DNA from: Kaistella chaponensis
Lineage (GTDB): Bacteria > Bacteroidota > Bacteroidia > Flavobacteriales > Weeksellaceae
DNA: 64,000 nt
Reading direction: 5' to 3'
NCBI RefSeq assembly: GCF_900156725.1
Contig: NZ_FTOI01000003.1
Span: forward strand, 62,001-126,000
The position numbers and the translations under genes are program-made. The notes under the pieces are model-generated. The model was given only the letters and a program-made list of their open reading frames with translations. It did not search any database and was not told the DNA's origin. Positions within the stretch are counted from its first letter, which is position 1. The number at the start of each line of letters is the position of its first letter. Below, piece by piece: positions 3,392 to 14,336 of the stretch.

Positions 3392-4039
3392 TTACAGTTC
3401 AGTGACAAGGTAATTTTTATATTGATCTTTGTCAAAATTAAATAGGGCACTGCTTAAGTTTTGATTTTCTTTATAATCGCTGATCGCAATTACAGAAACA
3501 GATTTATCGGTAGAAAATTGCTCCACTTTTACAATTTGTTTTTTCGCAGCATTCACAAAAAGATTGACTTCTTGGATGCCGTTTTTTGAAGTTGGAGTCA
3601 GTTTAATGAAATCAGAATTCACACCGTTCACCATTAATTTCCCCATATATTTCACGTTGTATCCTTTTTTATATTCTTCAATATAATTTAAAGGCGAGAA
3701 CATCTGTTCGTTTCCTGTTGGTTTCGCTACGGTAACTTCTTGATCTTCTGCGGAAATATTATACAATTTTTTGCCATCAAAAATCTGTTCAGTTCCCATG
3801 ATTTTCAATTTGTACTTGTCTTTTGCAGAATAGAAAATTCCAGGTTCGGTGCGCGTAATTTTTTTACTGTTTCCTGTTCCGTACACAAATTTAAAATACA
3901 CATTGTTTTTAGATTTATACTGAGTAGAGATCGCGTCTAAAATCGTTTTTGCTTTGGCATCAATTTTCTGCGCAGAAAAACTCGCGCTTGCTGCTACAAT
4001 TAATATCCCAAGAGAAATTTTACTCCATGTATTTTTCAT
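3392..4039 (-). CDS. lolA: outer membrane lipoprotein carrier protein LolA
   Basis: A 215-residue protein with a signal peptide ending SFSAQ (about residue 24) and a LolA-type fold: AKTILDAISTQYKSKNNVYFKF at the N-terminus, a GIFYSAKDKYKLKIMG strand pair, FDGKKLYNIS, and a late VNLFVNAAKKQIVKVE strand. LolA carries lipoproteins through the periplasm from the LolCDE exporter to the outer membrane. It is followed by its own terminator and preceded by ftsK (60-base gap), so the two may share a transcript. The lolD ATPase of the same pathway is at 31783-32448. Confidence 0.88.
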   Translation of the reverse strand: MKNTWSKISLGILIVAASASFSAQKIDAKAKTILDAISTQYKSKNNVYFKFVYGTGNSKKITRTEPGIFYSAKDKYKLKIMGTEQIFDGKKLYNISAEDQEVTVAKPTGNEQMFSPLNYIEEYKKGYNVKYMGKLMVNGVNSDFIKLTPTSKNGIQEVNLFVNAAKKQIVKVEQFSTDKSVSVIAISDYKENQNLSSALFNFDKDQYKNYLVTEL

Positions 4040-4099
4040 TCTTCTTTTCTTTTGATTAAAATTTTACTATAAAATTAAACTCATGTTTAAAGTTTAAAA

Positions 4100-6556
4100 T
4101 TACTTTCGCAACTCTTCCAAAAACTGTTCCAAAGAATTTAAATCAGAGATTTGTACTTCTCTTGCTTTTGCTCCATTAAACCCACCAACAATTCCACTTG
4201 CTTCCAATTGATCCATGATTCTTCCGGCTCTGTTGTAACCCAATTTAAGTTGTCTTTGAAGCATTGAAGTGGAGCCTTGCTGCGTAGAAACAATAATTCT
4301 TGCGGCATCTTCGAAAAGAACATCTTTTTCGTTCGGATCAAAAGCTCCCACGGTCGAAGTCGTTTCTTCCGAAGAATATTCCGGTAACATAAATGCACTT
4401 GCATATCCTTTTTGTTCCCCGATAAATTCTGCAATTTTTTCAACTTCTGGCGTATCTACAAAAGCACATTGCAATCGCATAATTTCATTTCCATTGAAAT
4501 AAAGCATGTCTCCTTTACCAATCAATTGATCTGCTCCCGGAGAATCTAAAATCGTTCTGGAATCTACGCTAGAAATTACACGGAAAGCCGCTCTCGCTGG
4601 GAAATTCGCTTTGATCATTCCCGTAATTACGTTTACTGAAGGTCTTTGTGTTGCTACAATTAAGTGAATTCCGACGGCTCTTGCCAATTGTGCTAATCTC
4701 GCAATAGGAATTTCAACTTCTTTTCCAGCAGTCATTATTAAATCAGCGAATTCATCGACGACCAAAACGATGTATGGCAAATAACGATGTCCATTTTCAG
4801 GATTCAGTTTTCGCTCCGTAAATTTTTTATTGTATTCCTTAATGTTTTTACAAAAAGCATTTTTAAGCAAATCATAACGCTGATCCATTTCCACACATAG
4901 GGAATTCAAAGTGTTAATTACTTTGTGGGTATCTGTAATAATCGCATCATCACCATCTGGAAGTTTTGCCAAATAATGTCTTTCAATTTTTGAATAAAGG
5001 GAAAGCTCTACTTTTTTAGGATCTACCATCACAAATTTCAATTCACTCGGATGTTTTTTGTAAAGTAAGGAAGTCAAGATGGCATTAATTCCGACCGATT
5101 TTCCTTGTCCGGTTGCTCCTGCCATTAATAAATGCGGCATTTTTGTTAAATCTGCCATAAAAATCTCGTTGGAAATGGTTTTACCAAAAACCACGGGCAA
5201 ATCCATATCTGTATTTTGAAATTTCTGTGAAGCAATCACACTTCGCATAGAAACCATCGCTGGATTTTTCCTTGGAACTTCTATCCCAATCGTTCCTTTT
5301 CCAGGCATTGGTGCAATAATTCGAATTCCTAATGCCGAAAGATTCAGCGCGATATCATCCTGTAATTTTTTAATTGAAGCAACCCGAATTCCAGCTTCCG
5401 GAACGATTTCATATAACGTAACAGTTGGTCCAACTGTCGCTTTAATTTCTGCAATTCCTACATTAAAGTTTTTGAGAAGTCCAACAATTTTATTTTTATT
5501 TTCTTCTAATTCTTCTCTATTAATGGCGATTTCTTCGTTTCCATAATCTCGCAATAAATCAATTGTTGGCATTTGAAAATTCGCCAAATCTAATTTATGA
5601 TCGTACAATCCGTGTTTGTCAACTAATTCTTGTGACTTTTTATCCGATTCGTCTACAATATCAATCGTTTTTGCCACTTCAACTTTAAAATCGATGTGAT
5701 CTGTTTTCGGAGAAACGATATCGATTGGCTTAGAAACTGGATTTAAATCAATAGAACTTCCTGTACTTTCCGTTACATTTATATTGGGCAATTCTTCAAA
5801 AGAAGTTTTGTTTGGCGTAACAATGGGTTCGATCTCAATTTCCGGAGTAAAATCAGGAACTTTGTTGATGGTAGAATCTTCGCTTTTAATGGATAAATCT
5901 TGCTCGTTTTGTAATTCTTCATCTGCTTCAAAATTTTCAGAAGAATTCGGCATCATCGCTTTTACTCGTCCTAAAGTTTGATCGTTGAGATCATTCAATT
6001 TTGATTTTACGTTGCTTGGATTTAAGTTAAATTCGAGAATAAAATACAACGAAATACTTACCAAAAGAATCAGCCATAATCCAACTGTACCAATTACTGA
6101 ATTGAGGAAATCCATAATTTGAAAACCGTAAACACCGCTCAAAACTCCTTGTCCATTGGTAATTGCACCCATGAAAATCGGCACCCAACAAATTAAAAAT
6201 AGGGAATGTCCGAAAGTTTTCCAAGGTTTAAAATAATTCTTTTTAAGGATCATCATTCCGAAAACAAAAAACAGAAACGCCACGACAAAAGCAGCAATTC
6301 CCAGACTTTCAAAAATAAAAAGATTACCCAACCAATCTCCTATTTTCCCAAATATATTCGAAGATTTCACGGTTTTATCCAACATTGTTCCAGCTTGACT
6401 TTGATCACTTTTCCAATTTAAAAGATAAGAGATAAAAGAGAAGGCCAAAATAATGGAGGTGACGATAAATAAAACTCCAAAAAATATGCGGGGTTTAGAG
6501 AGTATTTTACTTTGCTCAGCCGTTTGCTGTGGTACTTTTTTAATATTTTTTTCCAT
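4100..6556 (-). CDS. ftsK: DNA translocase FtsK
   Basis: An FtsK/SpoIIIE translocase of 818 residues. Four membrane helices lie at about 25-47, 81-104, 116-133 and 155-175, followed by an acidic linker, the alpha and beta motor domains, and a C-terminal winged-helix gamma domain (RQLKLGYNRAGRIMDQLEASG) that reads KOPS sites. Walker A (GATGQGKSVG) is near residue 480 and Walker B (VLVVDEFADL) near 600. FtsK pumps chromosome ends through the septum and triggers dimer resolution. A longer reading with 22 extra residues is possible, but a TAAATTTG box sits between the two candidate ATGs, which supports the start at 6556. Confidence 0.95.
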   Translation of the reverse strand: MEKNIKKVPQQTAEQSKILSKPRIFFGVLFIVTSIILAFSFISYLLNWKSDQSQAGTMLDKTVKSSNIFGKIGDWLGNLFIFESLGIAAFVVAFLFFVFGMMILKKNYFKPWKTFGHSLFLICWVPIFMGAITNGQGVLSGVYGFQIMDFLNSVIGTVGLWLILLVSISLYFILEFNLNPSNVKSKLNDLNDQTLGRVKAMMPNSSENFEADEELQNEQDLSIKSEDSTINKVPDFTPEIEIEPIVTPNKTSFEELPNINVTESTGSSIDLNPVSKPIDIVSPKTDHIDFKVEVAKTIDIVDESDKKSQELVDKHGLYDHKLDLANFQMPTIDLLRDYGNEEIAINREELEENKNKIVGLLKNFNVGIAEIKATVGPTVTLYEIVPEAGIRVASIKKLQDDIALNLSALGIRIIAPMPGKGTIGIEVPRKNPAMVSMRSVIASQKFQNTDMDLPVVFGKTISNEIFMADLTKMPHLLMAGATGQGKSVGINAILTSLLYKKHPSELKFVMVDPKKVELSLYSKIERHYLAKLPDGDDAIITDTHKVINTLNSLCVEMDQRYDLLKNAFCKNIKEYNKKFTERKLNPENGHRYLPYIVLVVDEFADLIMTAGKEVEIPIARLAQLARAVGIHLIVATQRPSVNVITGMIKANFPARAAFRVISSVDSRTILDSPGADQLIGKGDMLYFNGNEIMRLQCAFVDTPEVEKIAEFIGEQKGYASAFMLPEYSSEETTSTVGAFDPNEKDVLFEDAARIIVSTQQGSTSMLQRQLKLGYNRAGRIMDQLEASGIVGGFNGAKAREVQISDLNSLEQFLEELRK

Positions 6557-7017: not shown

Positions 7018-7035
7018 AATATCATATAAAATTTA

Positions 7036-7061
7036 AAATCCGCTGCAGCGCGGATTTTTTT
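7036..7061. terminator. bidirectional terminator
   Basis: AAATCCGC, TGCAGC loop, GCGGATTTTTTT. It sits 18 bases after the small acidic gene and 8 bases before the stop of the convergent thioesterase. Confidence 0.88.
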
Positions 7062-7068
7062 AATTCAG

Positions 7069-7470
7069 TTAAGACGAAGGATGATCTTCAAAAATTTTTA
7101 GCGGTTTTTTATCGGACCCGATTGCGACCAAAGTAAAATCTCCGGCAACTGCTTTTTCCCGTTTTTCTTCATACATTTCTTCTACAAAAACTTCCACATT
7201 TACCTTTACACTGGAGTTTCCTACATATTTTACTTTGCCAATTAATTCCACCAAAGTATCTGCAGGAATGGGTTTTTTGAAATCAATTCGGTCGCAACTC
7301 ACCGTTACGAATGATTTTCTGGCAAATCTTGTTGCCGTCATAAATGCAACTTCATCCATCATTTCCATCACCGTTCCTCCAAACATGGTATTGTGATGAT
7401 TGGTAATATTGGGGAAAACTACTTTGAAAACGTGGGTTTCGGAATTTTTGATTTTTTCCTGATAATTCAT
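7069..7470 (-). CDS. acyl-CoA thioesterase (hotdog fold)
   Basis: A 133-residue single-hotdog protein of the YciA/acyl-CoA hydrolase group. NHHNTMFGGTVMEMMDEVAF (residues 24-43) holds the family's conserved Asn27, Gly-Gly 31-32 and acidic Asp39, followed by the long hotdog helix, then CDRIDFKKPIPADTLVELIGKV. It should hydrolyse acyl-CoA thioesters in the cytoplasm; chain-length preference cannot be read. It is preceded by a leader with a cobalamin riboswitch on the same strand and ends at a strong terminator, so it is the only gene visibly placed under that switch. Confidence 0.88.
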   Translation of the reverse strand: MNYQEKIKNSETHVFKVVFPNITNHHNTMFGGTVMEMMDEVAFMTATRFARKSFVTVSCDRIDFKKPIPADTLVELIGKVKYVGNSSVKVNVEVFVEEMYEEKREKAVAGDFTLVAIGSDKKPLKIFEDHPSS

Positions 7471-7574
7471 TTCTTTTAATTTTACAGATTGATAAATGAG
7501 TTGAACAGAAAAACAGGACTTTTAAAAAGTGGAATTTCTGCTTCAAATCGCGAAAGCATTTTTTAATTTCAAAA

Positions 7575-7660
7575 AAGGGATCTGACTTATCCTCGCCGGA
7601 TTTACAGTTGCGCGACAGTTCGTGATTTTCACACGATTCACCTTGATGATTGAAATCTTC
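7575..7660 (-). promoter_or_regulatory. cobalamin (B12) riboswitch
   Basis: Read on the minus strand, the sequence holds the conserved core of cobalamin riboswitches: GGTGAATCGTG, TGAAAAT loop and CACGAA (P5 arm), then CTGTCGCGCAACTGTAA (7602-7618), an ATCC...GGAT arm (P6) and AAGTCAGATCCC (7577-7588, the P3 return). A TATCTTTG -7 box lies just upstream, so the RNA would start at the riboswitch. The acyl-CoA thioesterase starts about 105 bases downstream. I cannot see a clear terminator or anti-RBS switch in that gap. The match is from recall of the Rfam RF00174 consensus, not a search. Confidence 0.82.
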
Positions 7661-7664
7661 GGTG

Positions 7665-7672
7665 CAAAGATA
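7665..7672 (-). promoter_or_regulatory. -7 box for the riboswitch transcript
   Basis: TATCTTTG on the minus strand fits TAnnTTTG, immediately upstream of the riboswitch. No clear -33 element is seen in the AT-rich sequence ahead of it. Confidence 0.55.
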
Positions 7673-11019: not shown

Positions 11020-13947
11020 ATGTTTTATAAAAAATATATTATAGTATTATTAACAGTTGTTTTTAATTTTTGTACAGCACAGACATTCAGTGGAGTAGGT
11101 GGAAATATTCCCAAAAATGATTACACGGTTTTTGATATTAATGTTAACGGAATTGGAGTTTTAAATTCCAGCCACGGCTTAGAAAAAATTTGTGTTAATA
11201 TAAATTTTCCACATGATGAGAATTTAAAATTAGCCTTACGTTCGCCTTTCGGTTCAATTATTATTCTAAGTGAAAATAATGGGGGAAAAGGTTCGGATTA
11301 TATAGGAACATGTTTTGATGGGGTATCAACAAAAAGTATTGCACTAGGAGAAGCTCCATTTACAGGGAATTTTTTAGCGGAAAGATCATTGGGAATTTTA
11401 AATAATAATCAATCTGGAGATGGAAAATGGTCTTTAATAATTTACAATAATTCAACATCATTATCTGGGAATTTGACAAATTGGACTATAACATTTGGAA
11501 ACAATCCTGTCATCACTCCTCCCGATCCACCCTATCCAAATTGTAGTAGTAATATCCCGACAACATGCACAACCGAAGCTTTTTGTGATTACGGTAAATC
11601 ATTTTGTGGAGTTTATAATAATGCATACGGAATGCCTGTTGTTAATCCTCAGAAAGGTTATTTAAAATTCAAAGCATCAGGAAAAAGTGCTGCTTTTAGA
11701 GTGTGGATAAAAAATGGAGGACCAGATAGAAACTTAGGTGGAGCTTTACCTATTGAACTTAATGTTAGTTTTTATCGTTCAGATTGTATCAGTGCGGGAG
11801 CGCAACCATTGATAACATTTGTTTTACCCTATAATTTAGATACTATACCAGATCCCAATTATTATGAATTGAAGCTAAATGATATCTTGGATGAATGTGA
11901 ATTGTATACCATAAAACTTGAAGGAATAAATAACAAATGCTATTTTGATTATGCGATTGAACAAACAGCAGGAATTAATGTAAAAGAAATTGTTGTAGAT
12001 CCTCCATCTGCAAAAATTTGTGCAGGAGATTCTGTTGATTTAAGTGTAATACAAGGTTGCGGTCCATTCGTATGGAGCCCATCTACAGGATTAAATACTT
12101 CATTTGGAAGTCATGTTGTAGCTTCACCCACTGTAACAACGATGTATAAAGTGTCTTCTACCGGTGCATGTTCTAAAACAAAAGATGTTTTGGTAGAAGT
12201 AGTTCCGAAACCTATTGTCAATGCAGGTCTAGATCAAACGAAATGTTCAAATATATTTCAAATGAATGCCAATGTACCCGCAACCGGAGAAAATGGATTT
12301 TGGAAAATTATAAATGGTAATGTTTCGCCTACTATTTCATCGGATCCAAAACAAATTTTTGTTTTAAATTCTCAGACAGCCACATTACGCTGGACAGTTA
12401 CTAACGGTATTTGTACTGTTGTTGATGATGTACAATTAGTTAATACATTACCTTCAAATACAAATCTTAACTTTAGTTATGAATCTCCTGTTTGTATAAA
12501 AAAATATAATTTTTTATCACCGCAATTATCAGTAAATTTTTCGGCAGGCGGTACTTTTTCATCAACTTCTGGGTTAGTAATAAATCCGATAACTGGAGTG
12601 ATTAATTTGTCTCAGTCATCGCCAGGAAATTATATTATCAATTATAAAATTTATGTAAATCCAACATGCGGAACTGTCGATTATGGTGCTTTTATTGAAA
12701 TTAAGCCCTACACAAATCCTGTAATTAATTTTAGTTTTCCAAGTACAATTTGTAATGATGTTAAGTCTGTTTTGCCTAATTTACCTTCTGGCTTTCAAAT
12801 TGGGGGAACATTCTCTTCATCGAGCACAAATTTATCTATGGATACAACAACTGGAATGATAAATGTTGCCAATAGTCAAAATGGTGTTTATACAATTACA
12901 TATCATTTTCCTGGATCTTTAGCAGACTGCATTGCTCCAAATACCTATTCACAACAAGTATCTATATTATCAAAGCCACAATACACTCAAAATTTGGATG
13001 TAGTAAGTTGTAACATCACTGGAACAGGAATTGGAAGTTTTAATTTATTATCAACAAAAGCATCATTAACTACAGAAACTAATGCAACGGTAAGTTTTTT
13101 TGAAACTTTGCAAGATGCAGAACAGAATCAGAACCCAATTATTAATACAAATTCTTATCCCAATGAAGTTCCGTATCATGATATAATTTTTGCCAGAATT
13201 TCTGTTCCCAACAAATGTACCGTATATGCAACATTGAATTTGAATGTGAAAGAAAATCCATATTCAGATACTTTGGGTGAAGGTCCTTATTATATTTGTA
13301 AAGGAACAACATTAGAATTGGATGCAGGAGAAGGATTTTCCGGTTATGAATGGTCACCTACAAATGAAAAATCTCAGAAAATAACGGTTAGTTCACCTGG
13401 TGAATATTGCGTTAAAATTACCTCAACTGATGGTTGTTCTTTTGTGCAATGTGTTTTGGTGAAAGAAGGAGTTTTGCCGGAATTTACTATTGAGATAATT
13501 CCCAATTACATGATCGTGCATGTAACTTCAGGAAATGCTCCATATGAATATTCTTTAGATGGTATTAATTGGCAGAATGAAAATCAGTTCCCTTATTCAA
13601 AGGGCAATACATACACTATTTTTGTAAGGGAAAAGAGCAAAGCAAATTGTGTTGCGTCGAAAACGGTTCATATCCCCTTAATTCCGAATGTGATAACTCC
13701 AAATGGTGATGGAATAAATGATTTTTGGAATTTAAGTACATTAAACTTTTATTCAGGAACCATCAAAGTGAAACTATTTAATCAACATGGAACTTTAGTA
13801 AAAGAATTAACCATTAATGATGGGAAAAATCTTGCGATGAATGAAATCAATCCTTATCAAAAATTATCTTCTGGAACCTACTGGTATCTTATTGAAATTC
13901 CTAATTTTGTTATACTTAAAGGATGGTTACTGGTTAAAAATAGATGA
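11020..13947 (+). CDS. T9SS secreted protein with P-domain and CHU_C sorting domain
   Basis: A 975-residue exported protein. Signal peptide about 1-21 (ending CTAQ). Residues about 22-165 form a proprotein-convertase P-domain: CVNINFPHDENLKLALRSPFG, then GDGKWSLIIYNN and NLTNWTITFG. The middle holds Ig/PKD-like repeats with paired cysteines (KICAGDSVDLSV...GCGPFVWSPSTG; YICKGTTLELDAG...YEWSPTNEK). The C-terminus from about 887 (IPNVITPNGDGINDFW) is the gliding-motility/CHU_C type B sorting domain, which directs export by T9SS. No catalytic domain is visible, so it may be an adhesin. It lies between the SRPBCC pseudogene and the decayed hutU copy. A 14-bp palindrome (AGATCTATAGATCT, 10999-11012) precedes the start. 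Confidence 0.9.
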   Translation: MFYKKYIIVLLTVVFNFCTAQTFSGVGGNIPKNDYTVFDINVNGIGVLNSSHGLEKICVNINFPHDENLKLALRSPFGSIIILSENNGGKGSDYIGTCFDGVSTKSIALGEAPFTGNFLAERSLGILNNNQSGDGKWSLIIYNNSTSLSGNLTNWTITFGNNPVITPPDPPYPNCSSNIPTTCTTEAFCDYGKSFCGVYNNAYGMPVVNPQKGYLKFKASGKSAAFRVWIKNGGPDRNLGGALPIELNVSFYRSDCISAGAQPLITFVLPYNLDTIPDPNYYELKLNDILDECELYTIKLEGINNKCYFDYAIEQTAGINVKEIVVDPPSAKICAGDSVDLSVIQGCGPFVWSPSTGLNTSFGSHVVASPTVTTMYKVSSTGACSKTKDVLVEVVPKPIVNAGLDQTKCSNIFQMNANVPATGENGFWKIINGNVSPTISSDPKQIFVLNSQTATLRWTVTNGICTVVDDVQLVNTLPSNTNLNFSYESPVCIKKYNFLSPQLSVNFSAGGTFSSTSGLVINPITGVINLSQSSPGNYIINYKIYVNPTCGTVDYGAFIEIKPYTNPVINFSFPSTICNDVKSVLPNLPSGFQIGGTFSSSSTNLSMDTTTGMINVANSQNGVYTITYHFPGSLADCIAPNTYSQQVSILSKPQYTQNLDVVSCNITGTGIGSFNLLSTKASLTTETNATVSFFETLQDAEQNQNPIINTNSYPNEVPYHDIIFARISVPNKCTVYATLNLNVKENPYSDTLGEGPYYICKGTTLELDAGEGFSGYEWSPTNEKSQKITVSSPGEYCVKITSTDGCSFVQCVLVKEGVLPEFTIEIIPNYMIVHVTSGNAPYEYSLDGINWQNENQFPYSKGNTYTIFVREKSKANCVASKTVHIPLIPNVITPNGDGINDFWNLSTLNFYSGTIKVKLFNQHGTLVKELTINDGKNLAMNEINPYQKLSSGTYWYLIEIPNFVILKGWLLVKNR

Positions 13948-13979: not shown

Positions 13980-14336
13980 CGATTGGCCGATAGAGAGACT
14001 TCTAATATTTTTGACGGCTCTAGATTTACCGCAGAAATGGCAATCCAAAATTTGATTGGTGAAAGTTTCCGTGAGGTAACCTTGATTTTAATTCACAATG
14101 GAGGTGGAGTTGGTTGGGTTGAAGCGATCAACGGTGGTTTTGGGATGTTGCTCGATGGAAGTGATGATGTATACAGACTTTTAAAATCAATCCTTTTCTG
14201 GGATGTGAATAACCGAATTTCCCGGAGATCTTGGGCAAGAAATGAAGGTGCAGTTTTCGCCGGTAAAAGAGCCATGAAAGCTGAACCGAATCTGAAAGTG
14301 ACGTTGCCAAATTTGGTTTATGTGGGAGTGTTTTAA
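13980..14336 (+). pseudogene. decayed duplicate of the hutU 3' end
   Basis: From RETSNIFDGSRF to the stop this matches the last 114 residues of urocanate hydratase; by hand count 91 of 114 positions are identical. Replacements hit strongly conserved places, for example Gly to Glu in SFRGAT and Gly to Val in GVGWGE, and DEGLF at the end has become YVGVF. The upstream 550 residues are absent. The reading frame is still open but the NAD-binding part is gone, so it cannot be a working enzyme. Confidence 0.92.

Follow-up and report, generated by a model that had tools for sequence, protein, structure and literature searches.

Published work sorts cobalamin regulon genes into those for biosynthesis, for the transport of B12 or of cobalt, and for isozymes (PMC3766115), and the switching contact of cobalamin riboswitches is the kissing loop formed between L5 and L13 (PMC9600662). 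Here, we describe a leader in a window of 64,000 nucleotides of Kaistella chaponensis DNA, in which an element of this kind stands, on the minus strand, ahead of a gene for a hotdog acyl-CoA thioesterase. The leader shares with the riboswitches of RF00174, RF01482 and RF01689 (clan CL00101) the core of P3, L5 (UCGCGCAAC), P6 and AAGUCAG, the L5–L13 kissing loop, and a position in the 5′ leader of a B12-related gene. It differs from them in being compact, without the P6 accessory region (one subset of leaders also lacks P1), in having a thioesterase as its target, and in a start-codon helix that extends to codon 2. Neither the class of riboswitch nor the fold of the enzyme is new; the target lies outside the published regulon categories (PMC3766115), and the open-licence papers covered contained nothing relevant on a thioesterase under a cobalamin riboswitch. 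Our preferred reading, to which we assign a probability of roughly 0.6, is that a functional cobalamin riboswitch is present, with the thioesterase as its sole target here, exerting OFF translational control over an enzyme for B12 shortage that likely relieves stalled mutases.

Identification of the aptamer

The first-pass annotation had proposed a B12 riboswitch on the minus strand and suggested an RF00174 covariance search. In a permissive Rfam scan, RF01689 (AdoCbl-II) matched the minus strand at 7567–7655 with 34.8 bits (E = 1.8e-6); model positions 1–81 were aligned end to end to the window aptamer, and the score fell 1.7 bits below the cut-off of 36.5. RF00174 scored 25.8 bits, below its cut-off of 31.5 (E = 1.6e-4 when the whole 3.04 Mb genome is searched), and the scan at curated cut-offs returned no Rfam match within the window. 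The search thus fell short in the window itself but succeeded on the same leader in two sister species, which exceeded the RF00174 cut-off with 32.1 (G033) and 31.7 bits (G009); the orthologous leader of L022 passed that of RF01689 with 37.1 bits. Together, these comparisons of sequence support the window element as a cobalamin riboswitch whose aptamer is of compact, AdoCbl-II-like form, and the leader RNA presumably binds cobalamin.

Immediately 5′ of the aptamer, the box TATCTTTG (7665–7672, minus strand) is present where the first-pass annotation had it preceding the riboswitch core, but it lies outside the riboswitch and resembles a promoter element: it fits TAnnTTTG, the Bacteroidota −7 element, and a TATATTTG-like box occupies the same place in most relatives. 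Transcription would be predicted to begin a few bases ahead of the aptamer. At its other end, the functional leader does not stop with the aptamer but continues 3′ as far as the start codon (7468–7470, minus strand).

Covariation and alternative folds of the leader

To assess the leader structure, 21 leaders of the genus were aligned and the pairs of a named structure were counted. The proposed structure comprises 31 pairs, with 99.4% of cells paired, compared with only 32–48% in slid-partner controls. Both sides have changed in six of the 31 pairs (a count reached in 8 of 500 shuffles), and these changes are found in P3, P6, P13, P14 and the start-codon helix. Covariation computed in this way supports the aptamer, the kissing loop (through its variation in other homologues, below), P13 and the start helix.

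All of the following elements lie on the minus strand. The P3 and P6 core is 100% paired, with both-side changes. The CGTG...CACG arm (7621–7635), which had been taken for P5, turned out to be the P3 stem-loop, in which both sides have changed in one pair. The P5/L5 core CTGTCGCGCAACTG (7605–7618), with L5 = UCGCG, is invariant in the 21 leaders. In P6 (7582–7610), which carries a short apical hairpin predicted in nearly all leaders, the stem reads CUG/CAG or CCG/CGG, with the middle pair U–A in 10 leaders and C–G in 11. P13 is formed by the hairpin TGCTT-TCGCGATTTG-AAGCA (7539–7558), one stem pair being G–C in nine leaders and A–U in 12, and its loop L13 (CGCGA) is complementary to L5 over 5 bp in all 21 leaders. 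This pairing is invariant within the genus; elsewhere among the homologues the two loops change in concert, from UCGCG/CGCGA in most to UCGUG/CACGA in L107 and UUGCG/CGCAA in L124. Both sides have changed in two pairs of the P14 hairpin CAGAAA...TTTCTG (7506–7540), an extended form of which competes with P13 in the alternative folds. A short reading frame across P13 (ATGCTTTCGCGA..., 25 codons in the window) was ruled out as a functional candidate, its ATG being missing where leaders have AAAACTTTCGCG.

Complementarity search and leader pairing counts further identified an anti-start element, TTCAACTCATTT (7494–7505), and its target, the start-codon region AAATGAATTATC (7461–7472), with 97.3% of cells paired in the 21 leaders. 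The element reads TTCATTTC in most relatives; in the window species the helix is interrupted and 6 bp long, a weaker platform than that of the relatives. Its outermost pair joins the leader base directly 3′ of P14 to the wobble position of the second codon (Asn, AAC/AAT), and is G–C in eight leaders, A–U in nine and G–U in four, with no mismatch. This synonymous position therefore covaries with a leader base (window 7461–7470 and 7505–7506; columns 154 and 198 of alignment A1), and a coding position appears, from the alignment, to be held by RNA pairing. In folding-energy computations the start codon was paired in most leaders when P13 was forced, and the free folds of L010, L016 and L022 extended P14, exposing one or more bases of the start codon, the first among them.

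The thioesterase and its conservation behind cobalamin switches

The gene behind the leader (7069–7470, minus strand) encodes a hotdog acyl-CoA thioesterase of 133 aa (4HBT; YciA/ACOT7-like; PF03061, 1.3e-16). As the first-pass annotation stated, it is the sole gene between the leader and an intrinsic-terminator-like hairpin, AATCCGCGCTGCAGCGGATT, followed by T-rich DNA (about 7035–7058, minus strand). The protein shares with YciA/ACOT7-type thioesterases a single hotdog domain and the conserved NHHNTMFGG...MDE motif region, but scores below the YciA equivalog cut-off (PRK10694 in NCBIfam, 49.4 bits against 162), and its gene lies behind a B12 switch. Solved relatives are 2gvh and 2eis, and it is distinct from a 30%-identical paralogue present in the same genomes. 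Unlike metE and nrdAB, whose products replace B12-dependent enzymes, the gene does not specify an isozyme of any such enzyme: its product is a PF03061 thioesterase, and we know of no B12 enzyme that catalyzes the thioesterase reaction.

Searches with the leader covariance model R1 and the thioesterase protein covered 246 Weeksellaceae genomes. In at least 108 of these the orthologous thioesterase gene is preceded, at a distance of 47–157 nt and in the same orientation, by an aptamer (40 short forms and 68 long ones), the carriers including Kaistella, Epilithonimonas, Cloacibacterium, Bergeyella, Halpernia, Elizabethkingia, Cruoricaptor and Amniculibacterium. A full-length RF00174 riboswitch (109–114 bits) precedes the orthologous gene in L079–L081; genus g40 has the full-length form at 109–114 bits, with L5 and L13 identical to those of the compact leaders. 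Beyond the family, the switch stands immediately ahead of a thioesterase gene in G059, G344, G469 and G289. Because the pairing recurs in more than 100 relatives, the thioesterase is better placed in a B12-shortage response than as the chance neighbor of a leftover switch.

In several lineages the thioesterase gene accompanies genes for B12-independent isozymes, sharing their operons and their type of leader. L111 has riboswitch, metE and thioesterase in this order (with 17 nt between the two genes), and metE and the thioesterase gene abut in L121. In L120 and L124 (where the aptamer scores 27.6 bits, below the cut-off) the order is riboswitch, nrdB, thioesterase, nrdA, placing the thioesterase between the genes of class I ribonucleotide reductase (L120, nrdB 1895–2869 and thioesterase 1477–1893; L124, 508–3375). 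In L099 the riboswitch is followed by a DUF71 gene (PF01902) and then the thioesterase. DUF71 has a predicted role in B12 salvage (PMC3541065), in a paper that mentions neither riboswitches nor acyl-CoA enzymes. L092 has near-identical compact switches ahead of both metE and its neighbor (3507–5308, minus strand), which encodes a secreted DUF5074 protein bearing a type IX secretion tail. Family assignments of these neighboring genes were confirmed. The thioesterase thus combines conserved adjacency to B12 riboswitches with shared B12-related operons across genera, and looks like a core, previously undescribed member of the B12-shortage regulon. The suggestion that it is an unusual member of the B12 regulon is strongly borne out by the at least 108 genomes and by the switch operons shared with metE, nrdBA and DUF71.

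Proposed mechanism and physiological role

In the mechanism that we propose, bound cobalamin would let L5 (UCGCG) kiss L13 (CGCGA) and so stabilize P13, which would capture the GAAG strand otherwise available for extending the P14 hairpin; the element UUC(A)UUUC, thus freed, would pair with the start-codon region and turn translation off. Without cobalamin, P14 would be extended, the start codon accessible and the thioesterase made. Most likely, then, B12 shuts off translation of the thioesterase, the OFF direction being indicated by the near-identical switches ahead of metE, a B12-independent isozyme, in L092. The thioesterase would thereby belong to the B12-shortage response, as metE and class I nrdAB do. 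When the AdoCbl-dependent acyl-CoA mutases MutAB and IcmF stall, acyl-CoA may build up, with propionyl-, methylmalonyl- or isobutyryl-CoA as candidate substrates, and hydrolysis by the thioesterase would free coenzyme A; under B12 shortage the enzyme probably releases CoA trapped above stalled MutB/IcmF. The genome itself contains three proteins with a B12-binding domain, in reading frames matching MetH (903 aa), MutB (727 aa) and IcmF (1137 aa); metE was not found in it.

The distribution of MutB bears on this role. Of the 90 thioesterase carriers in an order-wide sample, 89 have MutB, compared with 212 of the 306 non-carriers; these counts ignore kinship, and the correlation is confounded by phylogeny and genome reduction. 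Within the genus, co-occurrence is uninformative, as MutB is present in 36 of 36 genomes; the thioesterase is dispensable there, since 14 of these 36 genomes lack the gene although all have MutB. Across the family the co-occurrence is suggestive, with exceptions. Riemerella-like G036 and G091 and several Epilithonimonas have MutB and lack the switch, which counts against the proposed role. The link to methylmalonyl-CoA metabolism raised in the first-pass annotation is accordingly plausible, in that most carriers have methylmalonyl-CoA mutase, but unproven, as G126 has no acyl-CoA mutase.

G126 also lends weight to the foremost alternative, that control by the switch is real and the role of the thioesterase is unrelated to stalled mutases, for example adjustment of acyl chains or of the CoA pool in methionine or nucleotide shortage. 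This genome retains the riboswitch–metE–thioesterase operon with a MetH-sized protein as the only B12-binding-domain protein found, and the operon partners of the thioesterase are metE and nrdBA, with no propionate genes. Set against this are the presence of a mutase in most tested riboswitch carriers and the standalone thioesterases of MutB-less genomes (G108, G121, G131 and G090 in the family, G045 outside it), which have no riboswitch, these being few cases and partly of one genus. We consider this alternative unlikely, at about half the weight of the stalled-mutase reading. Much further down stands an ON switch, in which cobalamin would induce the thioesterase, for instance so that products of active mutases are trimmed: such a reading gains some room from both leader folds being known only from computation, but the start codon is sequestered in the P13-forced folds of most leaders, and the genes behind homologous switches, metE and class I nrdBA, would be expected to be silent in the presence of B12, making it highly improbable. 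That the switch is left over from a btuB-, metE- or nrd-like gene since lost, now without useful regulation, as the first-pass annotation also offered, is the least credible reading of all and is dismissed in spite of the sub-threshold Rfam scores in the window, because the direct switch–thioesterase arrangement is conserved across many genera and the leader helices covary, with compensatory changes kept in P3, P6, P13, P14 and the start helix; moreover, among relatives there is no sign of a gene lost between switch and thioesterase, and the genome already carries a separate btuB switch.

If relief of stalled mutases is indeed the role, relief of a metabolic block caused by B12 shortage would be an additional kind of cobalamin-riboswitch target, and a bacterial counterpart of methylmalonic acidaemia would become directly testable. 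More tentatively, and with somewhat less than even confidence, B12 riboswitches of the Flavobacteriales may define a new regulon class, a relief valve for CoA rescue, not a substitute for a B12 enzyme, made only when B12 is depleted and emptying the acyl-CoAs caught above stalled AdoCbl mutases, in which the aptamer has shrunk from full-length to AdoCbl-II-like on a homologous leader in Kaistella and relatives, possibly altering the form of cobalamin that is sensed.

Evolution of the leader and further observations

The compact and full-length leaders have L5, P13 and L13 in common, and reduction from the full-length to the compact form is, judging from these sequences, the likely direction of change, though unproven, given that the thioesterase lineages carrying the two forms are about 65% identical. 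On a tree of 82 thioesterases, the compact-switch label needs about nine changes, and switchless Epilithonimonas are nested inside switch-bearing ones. In two of the Epilithonimonas loci (L044 and L048) the platform piece TTCATTTCAAATGT is kept about 100 nt upstream of the thioesterase and the aptamer is gone; as the piece persists without an aptamer, these are probably natural relics of riboswitch loss in which the thioesterase was kept. With full-length, compact and P1-less aptamers before one gene, and losses in some Epilithonimonas, the family would offer a natural series for the study of aptamer shrinkage and ligand choice.

Elsewhere in the same genome (contig C28, L001:1501–1692), a full-length cobalamin riboswitch with 92.7 bits lies ahead of an ORF (1819–2919) whose product has leucine-rich repeats and a type IX secretion tail (PF18962) and is a candidate for capturing B12 at the cell surface. 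Within the window, the 3′ end of the urocanase gene occurs a second time on the plus strand at 13983–14336, with 84% DNA identity and PF17392 only; this copy is located after the ORF of a 975-aa secreted protein (11020–13947) and looks like a partial duplication remaining downstream of hutU.
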